This document shows, in pieces, positions 7,721 through 14,183 of a stretch of DNA of 64,000 nt. Made by a program: the position numbers and the translations under genes. The notes beneath the pieces are model-generated. The model searched no databases, was not told where the DNA came from, and saw only the letters and a program-made list of their open reading frames with translations. Source of the DNA: Bacillota bacterium (GTDB taxonomy: Bacteria > Bacillota > Limnochordia > DTU087 > JAAYGB01); NCBI GenBank assembly GCA_012727955.1, contig JAAYGB010000001.1:1-64000 (forward strand). The letters are read 5' to 3'. The first letter of the stretch is position 1. Each line of letters starts with the position of its first letter.

Positions 7721-8161
7721 TTAGCTCTCCTCCATGGATTTCTCCGCGGCTATTTTCAAAGTATGCCAGGCCAGATTGGCACACTTGACCCTGGCCGGTA
7801 GGTTGGCGATATTCTTGAACACTAGAGCATCGGACAAAACTTTCAATTGAGCCTCGTCAGTGTTCCGACCCTGAATCATGGCAATGAAGGCATCGGCCAT
7901 CGCCTTGGCTTCCTGAAGGGACTTTCCGGAAATTAGGTCAATCATCATCGCAGTGGAAGCCTGGGAGATGGCACAGCCCTGGCCGGTAAAGGCTGCCTCG
8001 ACGATACGATCCTTGTCCAGCTTTAGTTCCAGGGTAATATCATCGCCGCAGCTGGGGTTGTGTCCCCGTTCCGAACAATCGGGATGCTCCAGGCGCCTTC
8101 TGTTGTGACTGCTGCGACTATACTCCAGGATTAGATCGGTGTAGATGGAATCAAGGGCCAT
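7721..8161 (-). CDS. sufU: SufU iron-sulfur assembly sulfur-transfer protein
   Basis: 146 residues. The three cysteines lie in [18 protein letters not shown] and [10 protein letters not shown], with an Asp after the first, which form the zinc site of SufU. The [15 protein letters not shown] stretch before the first motif carries one more Cys. In Bacillota SufU accepts persulfide sulfur from SufS and passes it to SufBCD. The start overlaps the sufS stop by 11 bases. Confidence 0.94.
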
Positions 8162-9389
8162 AGCCTAACCACTTCCTTACCTCTTTAATGGCTGCGATGA
8201 GGCTGTCAACCTCATCTAGGGTGTTGTATAGATAAAAACTGGCTCTGGAGGTCGCGGGGACCTGTAGGTAGCTCATCAAGGGTTGGGCGCAGTGATGCCC
8301 TGCCCTGACCGCGACGCCGTAACTATCCAGGATGGTAGCCACATCATGGGGATGGCATCCCTCCAGAACAAAGGAAATCACTGGGCCCTGCTTCTCAACA
8401 TCTCCGGGACCGATGATCCGAAGATGATTGATGCGGCGCAGCTGCTCCAAGGCATAGGCAGTAAGGCGCCTTTCGTGGCTTTGGATATTCTCCCACCCGA
8501 TGGCTTCTAGGTAGTCAATGGCCGCCGCCAAACCCAGGGCTCCCGCGACATTGGGGGTGCCCCCTTCAAACTTCAAAGGTGGCTCTGCAAAGGTAGATTC
8601 CTGCTCCTGGACGTACTCAATCATCTCGCCCCCAAACAAAAAGGGCGGTATTTGCTCCAGCAGCGACAACTTACCATACAGGACTCCAATTCCCATGGGG
8701 CTCAACATCTTGTGCCCGGACCACACCAGGAAATCCGCATCTAGCTGTTGGACGTCGACTTTGCTGTGGGGCACACTTTGCGCTCCATCGATGACCACCA
8801 CAGCTCCCTTGGCGTGGGCGAAGTCGATGATCTCCTCGATGGGGTAGATTGTCCCTAGTGCATTGGACATGTGAGCGATACTGACGACTTTAGTTTTCTC
8901 GGTAATGGTCGCGGCCAGCTGATCCATGTCGAGAGTGTAATCTTTGTTCAGATATAAATACTTGAGGACCGCTTTTCTAGTCTTAGCTACCCGCTGCCAG
9001 GGAACGAGATTGCTGTGGTGCTCCGATATGCAAAGGACAATTTCATCTCCAGGGCCCACAAAGGACATTCCGTAGGAGAAAGCAATGAGATTTAGGGCCT
9101 CCGTGGCATTCTTGGTGAAGACAATTTCCCTTGGGGAAGCGGCATTGATGAACTGGCTCACCCTAGCCCTGGCCCCTTCGTACAAGGTCGTTGAGGTAAC
9201 CCCCAATTCATAGGCACCCCGGTGGGGATTGGCATTACACCTTTGGTAGTAGTCCTTCATCGCCTGGAGGACACCATCGGGTTTGTGGGTGGTGGCGGCA
9301 TTGTCCAGGTAGATCAAGGGCTTGCCCTTGACCTGCTGCGCCAAAGTGGCAAAATCCCTGCGAATGACATTGACATCAAAGTGCTGCAT
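8151..9389 (-). CDS. sufS: SufS cysteine desulfurase (group II)
   Basis: 412 residues, PLP-dependent. DNAATTHKPDGVLQAM near the N-terminus, FTKNATEALNLIA, the PLP lysine in DFLVWSGHKMLSPMGIGVLYG, and the persulfide Cys in VRAGHHCAQPLM. The short loop before that Cys is group II, which needs SufU. Start chosen at ATG 9389 because GGAGGT lies at ideal distance; a longer frame to 9416 would intrude further into sufD. It overlaps sufD by 14 bases. Confidence 0.95.
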   Translation of the reverse strand: MQHFDVNVIRRDFATLAQQVKGKPLIYLDNAATTHKPDGVLQAMKDYYQRCNANPHRGAYELGVTSTTLYEGARARVSQFINAASPREIVFTKNATEALNLIAFSYGMSFVGPGDEIVLCISEHHSNLVPWQRVAKTRKAVLKYLYLNKDYTLDMDQLAATITEKTKVVSIAHMSNALGTIYPIEEIIDFAHAKGAVVVIDGAQSVPHSKVDVQQLDADFLVWSGHKMLSPMGIGVLYGKLSLLEQIPPFLFGGEMIEYVQEQESTFAEPPLKFEGGTPNVAGALGLAAAIDYLEAIGWENIQSHERRLTAYALEQLRRINHLRIIGPGDVEKQGPVISFVLEGCHPHDVATILDSYGVAVRAGHHCAQPLMSYLQVPATSRASFYLYNTLDEVDSLIAAIKEVRKWLGYGP

Positions 9390-10509
9390 TGACCAACCTC
9401 CGATGAATCTCAGCATCGATTGCTTCCCTTAGCCTGGTGTTAGGTATCCGCTCCAGTACCGGTCGGAAGGAGGCCTCCACCAGCAATTTCAGGGCCTCGG
9501 AATAGCTAAATCCCCGGCTCATCAGATAAAAGAGCTGAGTCTCATCCACCTGACCGGCACTGGCGGCGTGATTGCCCTGAACATCGTCCTCCCGGCACAA
9601 GAGCAGGGGCACAGCATCGGACTTAACCCCTTTATCCAGCAGCAACACCGACTCTTCCTCACTGCCCCTGGCTCGCCGTGCCCCGGGGTGGAAATCAATG
9701 GTACCCCGAAACACCTTTTTGGCGGTGTCCTTGAGGGCACCCCGGACTGCAAGATCACTGAGACTCCGGGGTCCAATATGGTTGAGCAGATAACTCAGGT
9801 CAAGGCGGCGCTCCTTATCCCCAAGGTAGAGAACATTCAGCTCAGCTTCTCCTGCCTCCCCGAGGTTATTGGTATAGCTGGTGACGGCATTCTGGCCACC
9901 CAACTCCACCTGGACAAAGCTCACCTTGGCGTCCCGCTCCACATAGGCTACAGTCGAATCAAAATGCTGGGAGACATCATTGAGCCGTTGGACTTTCACC
10001 ACCGTAACCTGAGCCCCTGCCTGAGCGTAGACCCGCATTGTGCCGCTGTGAAAACCCCGAGTTACAGGATCACTGTGGTAATCAATAATCACAGTGACCT
10101 GGCTTCCCCGCTCCGCCACGATCAGATTGTGATCCACTAAGATGTCATTGTCCGAATCTATCCCGTAGGCAATCTCCACCGGCGTCGCCGCCCAGTGTCC
10201 CTGGGGAACATGGACCAGCACTCCGGAGTTGTAATGGGTTTCTCCGATCGGAACTAATTCTCCAGACACCCCATAACCAGCGTCGATGGCAAATCCAGGG
10301 ATAGGTGGCAGGTAGTCCTGGACATTCACCTGCGTCACCGGGGCGATGGTGACCCTTTCATCTCCCATCCTTTGAATGTAAGGTTTGTGGTAGGGCGAAA
10401 TTCGTCGCTTTATCGGCCTATCTAGGTGCAAAGCGTTGAGCTTAAGCCACCGATAGGTACTAACGGGAAGGGTATTGAGCGCCTCTGTGACTTGTACCTC
10501 CACAGCCAT
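9376..10509 (-). CDS. sufD: SufD scaffold protein
   Basis: 377 residues, paralogous to SufB. The C-terminal beta-helix part has RRARGSEEESVLLLDKGVKS and REDDVQGNHAASAGQVDETQ, where the His of HAAS is typical for SufD, and then LFYLMSRGFSYSEALKLLVEASF. It forms the SufBC2D complex. Five bases separate it from sufB. Confidence 0.94.
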   Translation of the reverse strand: MAVEVQVTEALNTLPVSTYRWLKLNALHLDRPIKRRISPYHKPYIQRMGDERVTIAPVTQVNVQDYLPPIPGFAIDAGYGVSGELVPIGETHYNSGVLVHVPQGHWAATPVEIAYGIDSDNDILVDHNLIVAERGSQVTVIIDYHSDPVTRGFHSGTMRVYAQAGAQVTVVKVQRLNDVSQHFDSTVAYVERDAKVSFVQVELGGQNAVTSYTNNLGEAGEAELNVLYLGDKERRLDLSYLLNHIGPRSLSDLAVRGALKDTAKKVFRGTIDFHPGARRARGSEEESVLLLDKGVKSDAVPLLLCREDDVQGNHAASAGQVDETQLFYLMSRGFSYSEALKLLVEASFRPVLERIPNTRLREAIDAEIHRRLVNAAL

Positions 10510-10514
10510 CCTCC

Positions 10515-11936
10515 TTATCCAATGGTTCCTTCCAGTTCCAGCTGAATCAAATTGTTCATCTCCACGGCATACTCCAGAGGCAGCTCCTTGGCGATGGGTT
10601 CGACAAAACCCCTGACGATCATTGCCCTGGCTTCCTCTTCACTAATCCCCCGACTCATCAAATAGTAGATGGCTTCATCGCTGATGCGGCCGATTTTCGC
10701 CTCGTGGCCGATGTCAACTTCATCAGTGGCGATATCCAGTACCGGGATGGTATCGGATTGGGATATATTATCCAGCATCAGTGATTCGCAGGATACCGTG
10801 GACTTAGAATGCTGGGCCCGCTGGCTAACTTTCAAAAGACCTCGGTAAACCGCCACACCGCCTCCCTTGGAGATGGACTTCGAGTTAATGGTCGATGAAG
10901 TGTAGGGTGCGGCGTGAACCACCTTGGCTCCTGTATCCAGATACTGCCCATCGCCTGCGAAGGTCACTCCGGTAAATTCAGCTCTAGCCCCCTGCCCCTT
11001 GAGAATGCTCATGGGGTACAGCATCGACACCTTGGAGCCAAAGGAGCCGGAAACCCATTCTATCCGGCCGTTGGCCTCAACGACACAGCGCTTGGTGTTG
11101 AGGTTGTACATGTTTTTCGACCAGTTCTCAATGGTGCTGTATCTCAACCCGGCCTTTTCCTTGACAAAGAGCTCCACACACCCGGCGTGGAGGTTATTGA
11201 CAGAGTGTTTTGGGGCGGAGCAGCCTTCGATGAAATGAAGCCAGGCCCCCTCCTCAACGATGATCAAGGTATGTTCAAATTGGCCCGCTCCCGGAGCGTT
11301 GGAGCGAAAGTAGGATTGCAGTGGGATATCCACCTGCACTCCCTTGGGGACATAGACAAAGGAGCCTCCGGACCATACGGCGCCATGGAGGGCGGCAAAC
11401 TTGTGGTCCTGGGGCGGTACCAAGGTCATGAAGTATTCCCTAACTAAATCCTCATACTCTCTAACCGCGGTCTCCATATCCGTGTAGATGACACCTCTTT
11501 GGACCATTTGGTCCTGGATGCTGTGATACACCACCTCGGAATCATACTGGGCTCCGACGCCGGCTAGCAGCTTGTGTTCCGCCTGGGGAATCCCTAGAGC
11601 GACAAAGGTATCCTTGATCTCCTGCGGGACATCATCCCAGGTATAGTTCAGCTGGGTGTTGGGCCGCACATAGGTAACGATGTTTTCGATATCTAGGCCC
11701 GTCAAATCTGGACCCCAGGGAGGCACATCCAAACTGTGGTAGATCTCCAAGGACTTGAGCCGAAACTCCGTCATCCACTGGGGCTCATTTTTCTGGCGAG
11801 AAATGTCCAGCACAATCTCGGGAGACAGCCCTTTGTCGGTTTTGTAGCTGTAGGTGAACTGGTTTTTGCGGTCGAAAACCTCTCGGTTGATGTCTGCAAC
11901 ATAAGTTTTTTTCCGATTAGACTCCACTATTGCCAC
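10515..11936 (-). CDS. sufB: SufB scaffold protein
   Basis: 473 residues, the expected length. Landmarks are QLNYTWDDVPQEIKDTF, SGGSFVYVPKGVQVDIPLQ, HFIEGCSAPKHSVNNLHAGC, MYNLNTKRCVVEANGRIEWV and DEVDIGHEAKIGRISDEAIY. The last includes the conserved GHEAK region next to the ligands for the nascent cluster. Assembles Fe-S clusters with SufC and SufD. Starts 14 bases after sufC. Confidence 0.97.
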   Translation of the reverse strand: MAIVESNRKKTYVADINREVFDRKNQFTYSYKTDKGLSPEIVLDISRQKNEPQWMTEFRLKSLEIYHSLDVPPWGPDLTGLDIENIVTYVRPNTQLNYTWDDVPQEIKDTFVALGIPQAEHKLLAGVGAQYDSEVVYHSIQDQMVQRGVIYTDMETAVREYEDLVREYFMTLVPPQDHKFAALHGAVWSGGSFVYVPKGVQVDIPLQSYFRSNAPGAGQFEHTLIIVEEGAWLHFIEGCSAPKHSVNNLHAGCVELFVKEKAGLRYSTIENWSKNMYNLNTKRCVVEANGRIEWVSGSFGSKVSMLYPMSILKGQGARAEFTGVTFAGDGQYLDTGAKVVHAAPYTSSTINSKSISKGGGVAVYRGLLKVSQRAQHSKSTVSCESLMLDNISQSDTIPVLDIATDEVDIGHEAKIGRISDEAIYYLMSRGISEEEARAMIVRGFVEPIAKELPLEYAVEMNNLIQLELEGTIG

Positions 11937-11950
11937 CTCCCCTAGGACGA

Positions 11951-12691
11951 TTAGTGCCGAAAGGCATCAAAGCCGTCTCGCTCCAGAGCCGTTACAAGAT
12001 CGACATCGCCGCTGGTCCTAATGCGCCCATCAATCAGCAGATGAACAAAGTCCGGACGAATATATTCCAGAATCTTGCTGTGATGGGTGATGATAATCAT
12101 GGCGTTGTCGCTGTTTTGGTAGCTCTGCACCCCGGCGGCTACGATACGGACGGCATCGACGTCCAGTCCGGAATCGGTTTCATCCAAAATAGCCAATTTT
12201 GGCTGCAGAACCAACATCTGCAGAATCTCGCTCTTCTTTTTTTCTCCTCCAGAAAAGCCCTCATTGAGATACCTAGTGGCATACTCTGGCTTCATCTCCA
12301 GAAGCTGCATCGTCTCCCGCAGCTGCCGACGAAACTCCAAGGGGCTGATGGGTTCCCCGGTAATCGCGGCCTTGGCAGAGCGCAGGAAGTTCTCTAGGGT
12401 AATTCCCGGCACTTCCTCGGGATACTGGAAGGATAGGAAAATACCCAACCGAGCCCTGGCGTCGGTGCGCAGGTCATTGATCCGCTGACCTTGCCAAGAA
12501 ATGTCACCGGCGGTGATCTCGTACTTGGGATGACCCATCAACACGTTGGCTAAGGTCGATTTTCCCGCTCCATTAGGTCCCATAATCACGTGAACCTCAC
12601 CGGAGTTAACCACCAGATCTAATCCAGAAAGAATCTCCTTTTCCCCCACTTGCACATGCAGGTTATTGATGGCTAAGAAGTTATTTGGCAT
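11951..12691 (-). CDS. sufC: SufC ATPase of the Suf complex
   Basis: 246 residues, ABC-type ATPase. Walker A is MGPNGAGKSTLANVLMG, signature FSGGEKKKSEILQ, Walker B LAILDETDSGLDVDAV, and the H-loop IITHHSKIL. The SufC-typical SGGEKK and DSGLD variants separate it from transporter ATPases. First gene of the operon, with AAGGAG before the ATG. Confidence 0.97.
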   Translation of the reverse strand: MPNNFLAINNLHVQVGEKEILSGLDLVVNSGEVHVIMGPNGAGKSTLANVLMGHPKYEITAGDISWQGQRINDLRTDARARLGIFLSFQYPEEVPGITLENFLRSAKAAITGEPISPLEFRRQLRETMQLLEMKPEYATRYLNEGFSGGEKKKSEILQMLVLQPKLAILDETDSGLDVDAVRIVAAGVQSYQNSDNAMIIITHHSKILEYIRPDFVHLLIDGRIRTSGDVDLVTALERDGFDAFRH

Positions 12692-12741
12692 CTGTAATAG
12701 CTCCTTATGTCTTAAATCCTACTAATTTACTCTGCTTTGTC

Positions 12742-12776
12742 AGCATAACATAGGATAGTTGCGTGCGCAACTATCC
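12742..12776 (-). promoter_or_regulatory. suf operon promoter with overlapping perfect palindrome (putative MarR operator)
   Basis: Minus-strand TTGCGC (12765-12770) and TATGCT (12742-12747) are 17 bases apart, with initiation expected about 45 bases before sufC. GGATAGTTGCG (12753-12763) and CGCAACTATCC (12766-12776) form an 11-bp perfect inverted repeat with a 2-base centre. It covers the -35 box and part of the spacer. Size and symmetry suit a MarR-family dimer, and a MarR gene ends 43 bases away. Confidence 0.6.
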
Positions 12777-12819
12777 GGAGAAAAAAAGAAATTCCAATTT
12801 TATCATCCGGCGGCCTGGT

Positions 12820-13290
12820 TCAGTCATCACAACGGGCCAGATGGCAGCCCAAACACCGATAGTTATCCGCTACGGTGTGGCCCACCTTTTTCAACAACTT
12901 GGTAAAGGTATCCCTTTCCTCTTCCGATAGGTTTGCCAACAGAGCCGTCTCCCAGTCGGTCATCAACTGGTGGATGCGAGCTCGTATTTTCCAGGCCTTG
13001 TCCGTCAGGTATACCCTATAGGCCCGCTTGTCCTGGGGATCAACCTCTCGAGTGACGTAACCCTCCCGCTCCAGCTTGTTCAACGCCCTGGTGGTATTGG
13101 CTCCATCGATACTCAAGCAGGCCGACAGCTCCCCTTGACTCACTCCATCACGATGGTATAGCTCCAACAGGAACATGATCTGGCCGCTGCCTAGGTTGAG
13201 ATCCTGTAGTTCCGTGGAAATATGGCTCAGGGATAGTCGATGGAGTACCGAAAACCAGCGACCGATGTAGTCATCGGGACATCGCTTCAT
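12820..13290 (-). CDS. MarR family regulator with cysteine-rich C-terminus
   Basis: 156 residues. The winged helix spans roughly residues 35-100 (GVSQGELSACLSIDGANTTRALNKLE; wing DPQDKRAYRVYLT). C4 sits at the N-terminus and the protein ends in a C146-x2-C149-x4-C154 cluster; C58 is in the DNA-binding domain. In MarR dimers the N- and C-terminal helices meet at the dimer interface, so C4 and the tail could form a metal, cluster or thiol switch. Start at ATG 13290 behind GGGGGAA. It lies directly upstream of suf on the same strand, so suf control is the simplest guess. Confidence 0.85.
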   Translation of the reverse strand: MKRCPDDYIGRWFSVLHRLSLSHISTELQDLNLGSGQIMFLLELYHRDGVSQGELSACLSIDGANTTRALNKLEREGYVTREVDPQDKRAYRVYLTDKAWKIRARIHQLMTDWETALLANLSEEERDTFTKLLKKVGHTVADNYRCLGCHLARCDD

Positions 13291-13365: not shown

Positions 13366-14129
13366 CTACCGGTCCTCGCCGGTAAGAATCAAAATGGCAT
13401 CCCGCAGAAACTTAGCAGCTCCTGGCTGATGCTGATCATAGTACTGGGTAAATCGCTCGTCGTCCACATACATTCGAGCCAGACCGGCATGGGCCTCCGG
13501 GGAGTAACTGCCCCAGGCCTTTGTGATCCACTCCCGATGGAGCTTGGCGATCCTTTGCCCAACTTCTCCCCCGGGGTCCTCGGTGGGTACCGCTTGGACC
13601 AAAAGGTCGATGATTTGCTGACTCAGTGCCTCGAAGTCTTCGTAGTCTGCCTTACTCATCCCCTTAAAGACGGAATAGGACCGGTCTATGGCCTCATCGC
13701 CCCACCTGCTCCTAATTTCCTCACCATACTTCTTCTCATTCTCCTGAATTAGTCTGCGCTTAAATCCCTCAAACTTCTCTTGGTCCGCCATGTCCATTCC
13801 CCTTTCCTTAACCACAATGGTCTTCTCCACGTTGGCAATGAGAGCATCCAGTTGCTCCCGCCTTTCGAGAAGCTGCCTCCGATGTTCCCGTAGTGCCTCC
13901 AGTTCGTCAAAACCTGGATCAGTGATAATCTCCTTGATCTTGTCCAGCTTGAAGCCCAGCTCCCGATAAAACAGAATCTGCTGCAGATTATCCACTTCCC
14001 TGGGACCGTAGATGCGATATCCCGCGGCGTTGACGGTCCCGGGCTTAGCAGGCCAATCTCATCGTAGTAGCGGAGAGTTCGTCCACTGATGCCAGCTAAA
14101 TCGGCTAACTCTTTGACCGTATATTCCAT
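13366..14129 (-). pseudogene. MerR family regulator with TipAS-like domain, frameshifted
   Basis: Two overlapping frames together give one MerR/TipAL-type protein of about 254 residues. The first opens MEYTVKELADLAGISGRTLRY and YDEIGLLSPG. The second continues TVNAAGYRIYGPREVDNLQQ and then ILFYRELGFKLDKIKEI, a coiled coil, and a TipAS-like helical ligand domain. Between SPG and TVN, near 14037-14041 in a run of C and G, one base appears to be missing. Either the gene is recently inactivated or the read has a homopolymer error; the promoter and ribosome site (GGGAGGTGA) are intact. TipA-type proteins bind thiopeptides or other drugs. Confidence 0.8.
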
Positions 14130-14152
14130 CGGTGTCACCTCCCGACAACTGT

Positions 14153-14183
14153 AGCATACACCTTTACGTAACGTAAAGGTCAA
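14153..14183 (-). promoter_or_regulatory. MerR-type promoter with 19-bp spacer and central dyad
   Basis: On the minus strand TTGACC (14178-14183) and TATGCT (14153-14158) are separated by 19 bases, the stretched spacing of MerR-controlled promoters. ACCTTTACG and CGTAAAGGT (14160-14180, 3-base centre) form a perfect dyad filling the spacer. It lies about 25 bases upstream of the regulator's ATG, so it should be its own promoter. Confidence 0.8.

Follow-up and report, generated by a model that had tools for sequence, protein, structure and literature searches.

A MarR-type regulator with clade-specific cysteines as the very probable repressor of the suf operon in uncultivated anaerobic bacteria

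We found that a small MarR-family protein, encoded just ahead of the iron-sulfur assembly operon sufCBDSU, is very probably a repressor of suf in some uncultivated anaerobic bacteria. The analysis began from one window, meaning the whole 64,000-nucleotide stretch of DNA examined, and was extended to related genomes. Comparison of these sequences provided a predicted regulator, a candidate operator, an overlap of that operator with the suf promoter, the co-occurrence and co-loss of regulator and site, and a set of cysteines specific to the clade. In the explanation that we favor, with a probability of roughly 0.78, a dimer of the protein on the palindrome would repress suf and the signal would be received via these cysteines.

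Results

The suf promoter and its candidate operator

On the minus strand of the window, marR (13290-12820) is followed by a palindrome (12776-12753) and then by sufCBDSU (12691-7721), with the five suf genes assigned by NCBIfam models (Table 1). The palindrome, GGATAGTTGCG-TG-CGCAACTATCC, is a perfect inverted repeat of 24 bp (11+2+11), as the initial annotation had described it. A repeat with an arm of at least 11 and a loop of at most 8 has a chance of approximately 2.5e-4 within the 128-bp intergenic gap between marR and sufC, and approximately 0.15 repeats with an arm of at least 11 and a loop of at most 2 are expected per 64 kb of first-order Markov sequence. With up to three mismatches allowed, the palindrome was the single match in the 2.27-Mb genome.

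The -35 box TTGCGC (12770-12765) lies inside the palindrome and is followed by a 17 bp spacer and the -10 box TATGCT (12747-12742), with TG just upstream. The extended -10 reads TGTTATGCT, and there are 50 bp from the -10 box to the sufC ATG at 12691, such that both the overlap with the -35 box and the well-spaced promoter 50 bases before sufC stood as first annotated. In agreement with the MarR family, a palindromic candidate operator is therefore seen over a nearby promoter. A generic promoter scan listed another, weaker site, CTGACA/TAGGAT (12743-12716), which was rejected; the palindrome-linked promoter was chosen because its spacing is fixed across 14 suf promoters.

Table 1. Features of the marR-suf region, in positions of the window
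Feature	Position	Strand	Basis
MarR-family regulator, 156 aa, proposed suf repressor	12820..13290	-	Pfam MarR_2 and MarR; orthologues; fold model
Codon of Cys4, with invariant Pro5 next	13279..13281	-	invariant in 16/16 orthologues
Codons of tail C146-x2-C149-x4-C154	12829..12855	-	C146 and C149 invariant; tail disordered in AlphaFold2 model
Candidate palindromic operator GGATAGTTGCGTGCGCAACTATCC	12753..12776	.	unique in genome; TAGTTGCGNNCGCAA identical in 14/14 suf promoters
-35 box TTGCGC, within palindrome	12765..12770	-	spacing to -10 invariant in 14 suf promoters
Extended -10, TGT-TATGCT	12742..12750	-	TGnTATnnT kept in 14/14 suf promoters
Possible IscR-type half-box AGTAAATTAGTAGGATTTAA in suf leader (tentative)	12712..12731	-	15/17 positions of AAATTACTAGGAATTAA
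sufC	11951..12691	-	TIGR01978, 344.9 bits
sufB	10515..11936	-	TIGR01980, 711.4 bits
sufD	9376..10509	-	TIGR01981, 241.4 bits
sufS	8151..9416	-	TIGR01979, 596.3 bits
sufU	7721..8161	-	TIGR01994, 174.5 bits

It was also noted that the window holds a TipA-type regulator gene (13366-14132, minus strand; MerR DNA-binding and TipAS domains) that is split near 14040 by an apparent frameshift into overlapping ORFs in different frames, reflecting either a pseudogene or an assembly error. Just ahead of this gene, at 14160-14180, lies a perfect 10-bp palindrome, ACCTTTACGTAACGTAAAGGT, which is probably its own MerR-type operator.

Regulator and site travel together

Among 101 related genomes searched, 12 gave a match at E 9e-37 or better, with the next at 7e-28. 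Five further orthologues were found in Tissierellales, where the orthologues scored 271-279 bits across 150 genomes vs 148 bits for the next match. There were 17 orthologue-bearing genomes and 16 complete proteins, the window's included, the gene of G047 being broken by unread bases and excluded from the alignment. A search of 397 more genomes from the phylum found no new member beyond apparent re-draws of G016, G020, and G030, judged as such by near-identical contig coordinates under other handles. The other complete orthologues were 47-65% identical to the window's MarR protein.

The element TAGTTGCGNNCGCAA was present at a fixed spacing before sufC in all 13 suf-bearing genomes with marR, and across 14 suf promoters it was identical and its distance to the -10 box constant. 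The window's order of marR, palindrome, and sufC was conserved in G016, G020, G030, and five Tissierellales, and in G049, G052, G057, and G072 marR was located apart from suf with the site still before sufC. The palindrome that the initial annotation had placed before sufC in the window was thus recovered there in its relatives, and its proposal of a dedicated suf repressor is strongly supported, with site and regulator co-occurring in 13/13 genomes in both trans and cis. Downstream of marR in f13 relatives (L007, L008, L011), we observed either a T-box leader preceding an apparent asparaginyl/aspartyl-tRNA synthetase gene or a SAM riboswitch preceding an apparent sulfhydrylase gene.

Of 17 suf-bearing genomes in which the sufC promoter could be read and no orthologue was detected, one carried the site and 16 lacked it (Fisher exact test across both groups; p = 1.2e-7, shared ancestry ignored). 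The exception, G058, has the site and no marR was found in its 440-contig assembly; it belongs to the genus of G049. Two genomes of the same family as marR-bearing genera, G039 and G066, have no marR, keep TTGC and TATGRTATYCT, and have lost the CGCAA half. As read from these promoters, the part required by the promoter is retained and the part of use to a repressor only is gone. The other suf-bearing families of the class had no sufC within the stretch read around sufB and were left out of the promoter comparison.

A whole-genome scan at up to three mismatches placed the best site at sufC in all of the suf-bearing genomes. A version of the site, mostly weaker, was also found before marR in seven genomes (G016, G030, and the five Tissierellales), which suggests putative MarR autoregulation there; none was seen before marR in the window. 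The element TAGTTGCGNNCGCAA also adjoins other MarR genes whose proteins do not have these cysteines, so that the cysteines are not needed for such sites, and the motif was rejected as unique evidence. In the Paenibacillus-like genomes L073 and L074, the gap that separates a cysteine-less MarR gene from a DHA2-type efflux gene holds two copies of the motif, at a distance of approximately 45 bp.

A different target was encountered in genus g24, where four genomes with the regulator had no sufB and no sufC over cut-off. The site was instead found before a wrbA-like gene, with its usual spacing to the extended -10, and a superoxide-reductase-like gene on the other strand adjoins the wrbA-like gene (L110:1524-2174, L109, L111). 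The two products appear, on reading their sequences, to be a flavodoxin-like quinone reductase and a superoxide-reductase-like protein. A signal of oxidative or redox stress would agree with wrbA as the target. The co-loss test was mixed in this genus, since G059, in which the regulator was not detected, has a degraded site with 6 mismatches vs a retained site before wrbA in the marR-less G068, partly palindromic but altered.

The MarR protein and its cysteines

The protein contains a winged-helix MarR domain (PF12802, 57.6 bits with a cut-off of 27; PF01047, 51.9 bits with a cut-off of 24.6). Its AlphaFold2 model has a good MarR core (mean pLDDT 82) and a disordered tail, and so contact between C4 and the tail and the ligand geometry are not readable from the model. 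The Foldseek matches of the model were MarR structures, with 3s2w as the top PDB match and nearest solved structure; of the cysteine positions, the N-terminal one alone is aligned with 3s2w, the window protein's tail lying beyond the aligned part. The nearest named NCBIfam model was BilQ (NF045593), for which the protein scored 90.6 bits against a curated cut-off of 125. No Rrf2 match was found in Pfam or NCBIfam, placing the protein outside the IscR/Rrf2 family, and no SufR model was among its 15 NCBIfam matches at E <= 1e-3. The protein had no further match in its own genome at E <= 1e-3, which makes a close paralogue unlikely as the operator binder.

The initial annotation had described C4 and a C146-x2-C149-x4-C154 tail, and these were confirmed in the 156-aa protein read from 13290. 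Their expected co-conservation was upheld for three of the four, as C4, C146, and C149, together with P5, are invariant in 16/16 complete orthologues; the last cysteine is present in only 14/16, at a spacing of x3 to x5, and is missing in G052 and G057, leaving three cysteines common to all. A fifth cysteine, C58, varies among the orthologues. In a tree with 18 other MarR proteins, the 16 complete proteins formed one clade with support of 99/99, and close non-members with a readable tail had no CxxC in it. The cysteine signature, as seen in the alignment, marks this MarR clade.

Proposed mechanism and competing explanations

MarR dimers typically block promoters, and their interface is built by the first and last helices. 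We infer that the MarR protein binds the palindrome and that it represses suf instead of activating it, as well as the signal to which it responds. A MarR dimer on the 24-bp palindrome would occlude the -35 box of the suf promoter together with its spacer, denying RNA polymerase access to sufCBDSU. The signal would be read by two elements, Cys4-Pro5 where helix 1 begins and the CxxC(x3-5)C tail that follows the final helix, whose cysteines would hold most likely an Fe-S cluster or, failing that, a metal or a reduced thiol state. Once the species held by the cysteines is lost or damaged, the dimer would be altered and come off the operator, so that cluster damage or a shortage of iron would switch suf on.

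As the initial annotation suggested, the protein may be a sensor of Fe-S clusters or redox state, and Cys4 with the CxxC tail are plausible Fe-S ligands. The arrangement of Cys-Pro and CxxC(x3-5)C would suit a cluster of the [4Fe-4S] or [2Fe-2S] type; the sequence would be nearly as compatible with a thiol switch or with zinc. At slightly less than even odds, the protein would be an Fe-S protein with its cluster bound through the N-terminal Cys-Pro and the C-terminal CxxC at the dimer interface, the cluster being the feedback signal for suf and wrbA the target where suf is absent.

A serious contender, though itself below an even chance, is that the cysteines form a thiol-disulfide switch, as in OhrR/SarZ, or a structural zinc site, with suf still repressed and oxidants or electrophiles sensed. 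Three invariant cysteines and a flexible fourth would also suit a disulfide or zinc site, and the good sites before wrbA, beside a superoxide-reductase-like gene, in the suf-less g24 fit oxidant sensing. However, the usual target is Fe-S assembly, Cys-Pro with CxxC resembles Fe-S ligand sets, and a CxxC with a distant N-terminal cysteine differs from the single-cysteine arrangement of OhrR/SarZ.

An ordinary ligand- or drug-responsive MarR protein, with suf in its regulon by happenstance and structural cysteines, appears unlikely. It was noted that marR comes after a MATE efflux gene in several f13 genomes and that cysteine-less MarR homologues with the same DNA motif occur beside efflux genes. 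However, the MATE genes have no site at up to three mismatches, whereas in all suf-bearing genomes the best one is at sufC, and the cysteines persist over 47-65% identity.

Somewhat less likely again is that suf is mainly controlled by IscR through a half-box in the leader, with MarR playing a minor role. An Rrf2-superfamily gene over cut-off was found in 20/20 genomes examined, the window's included, and thus in every marR-bearing genome examined. In most of the 20 genomes, and in nearly all of the marR-bearing ones, the protein was IscR-like, with three clustered cysteines and a gene that heads an iscS-like gene; in the window's genome an ordinary IscR-like protein is encoded ahead of iscS-iscU, and in G039 the sole Rrf2 protein is of another type. 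Most suf promoters examined from marR-less Tissierellales (L168-L196) also carry a full IscR-type palindrome, ATTCCTAGT-N4-TACTAGGAAT. In marR-bearing genomes, however, the box is one-sided with 4-6/19 mismatches (the window, G020, and the marR-bearing Tissierellales) or absent (G016, G030, g12, and f13), and the MarR site is retained in all of their suf promoters. Given the IscR-like half-box in the leader, suf may not be under MarR alone; control through the MarR site seems to be the constant one, and the IscR input an older or secondary one.

Two of the marR-less Tissierellales suf promoters carried a Fur-like box with 2/19 mismatches, and the IscR-type palindromes and Fur-like boxes of these genomes amount to a regulator swap within one order.

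That the palindrome is an RNA hairpin (a marR terminator or suf leader element) is highly improbable, for although it appears in a scan as a minus-strand stem resembling a terminator, an intrinsic terminator was rejected on the lack of a T-run 3' of it (no U-run in the RNA), on the -35 box within it, which puts it upstream of the transcription start, and on separate T-run hairpins upstream of it in relatives, and its distance to the -10 box is constant.

Discussion

Operons of the suf type are known to be controlled by IscR, SufR, Fur-family, or RisR-type regulators. In cyanobacteria and actinobacteria, suf is repressed by the [4Fe-4S] protein SufR. It resembles the proposed regulator in being a winged-helix repressor, in the location of its gene ahead of suf, in having cysteines as ligands, and in autoregulation, and differs in protein family. 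IscR, of the Rrf2 family, likewise controls Fe-S assembly genes and has three conserved cysteines, but belongs to another family and recognizes another DNA site.

The precedent for an Fe-S cluster in a MarR protein is ChlR, a cyanobacterial MarR-type regulator reported with an O2-sensitive [4Fe-4S] cluster (PMC4500134). The two proteins share the MarR fold, a Cys-Pro close to the N-terminus among their conserved cysteines, and a proposed role in Fe-S or redox sensing. In contrast, ChlR activates tetrapyrrole genes and no link to suf is described for it (PMC4500134). The ligands proposed for ChlR are a pair of N-terminal cysteines in each subunit (C-x4-6-C-P), whereas the window protein has no such pair, with a single N-terminal Cys-Pro and the CxxC tail.

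A paper on suf in Streptococcus mutans names PerR, CysR, SpxA2, and SloR and nowhere mentions MarR. No earlier report of a MarR-type suf regulator was found in the literature searched, in which subscription journals and preprints were thinly covered. The separate elements, namely regulators of the MarR type, MarR proteins with Fe-S clusters, and repressors of suf, are known, and their combination is new to this searched literature.

With a MarR repressor that has an operator and a set of cysteines to itself, one more family would join those known to control suf, and the co-loss of regulator and half-site and the target switch to wrbA offer natural experiments. Should the protein hold an Fe-S cluster, a MarR dimer would have been made into a cluster sensor by one added N-terminal cysteine and a short tail, and the role of SufR and IscR would have been invented independently in another protein family. 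A role given to unrelated regulators in better-known bacteria very probably falls here to a small, cysteine-bearing MarR protein.
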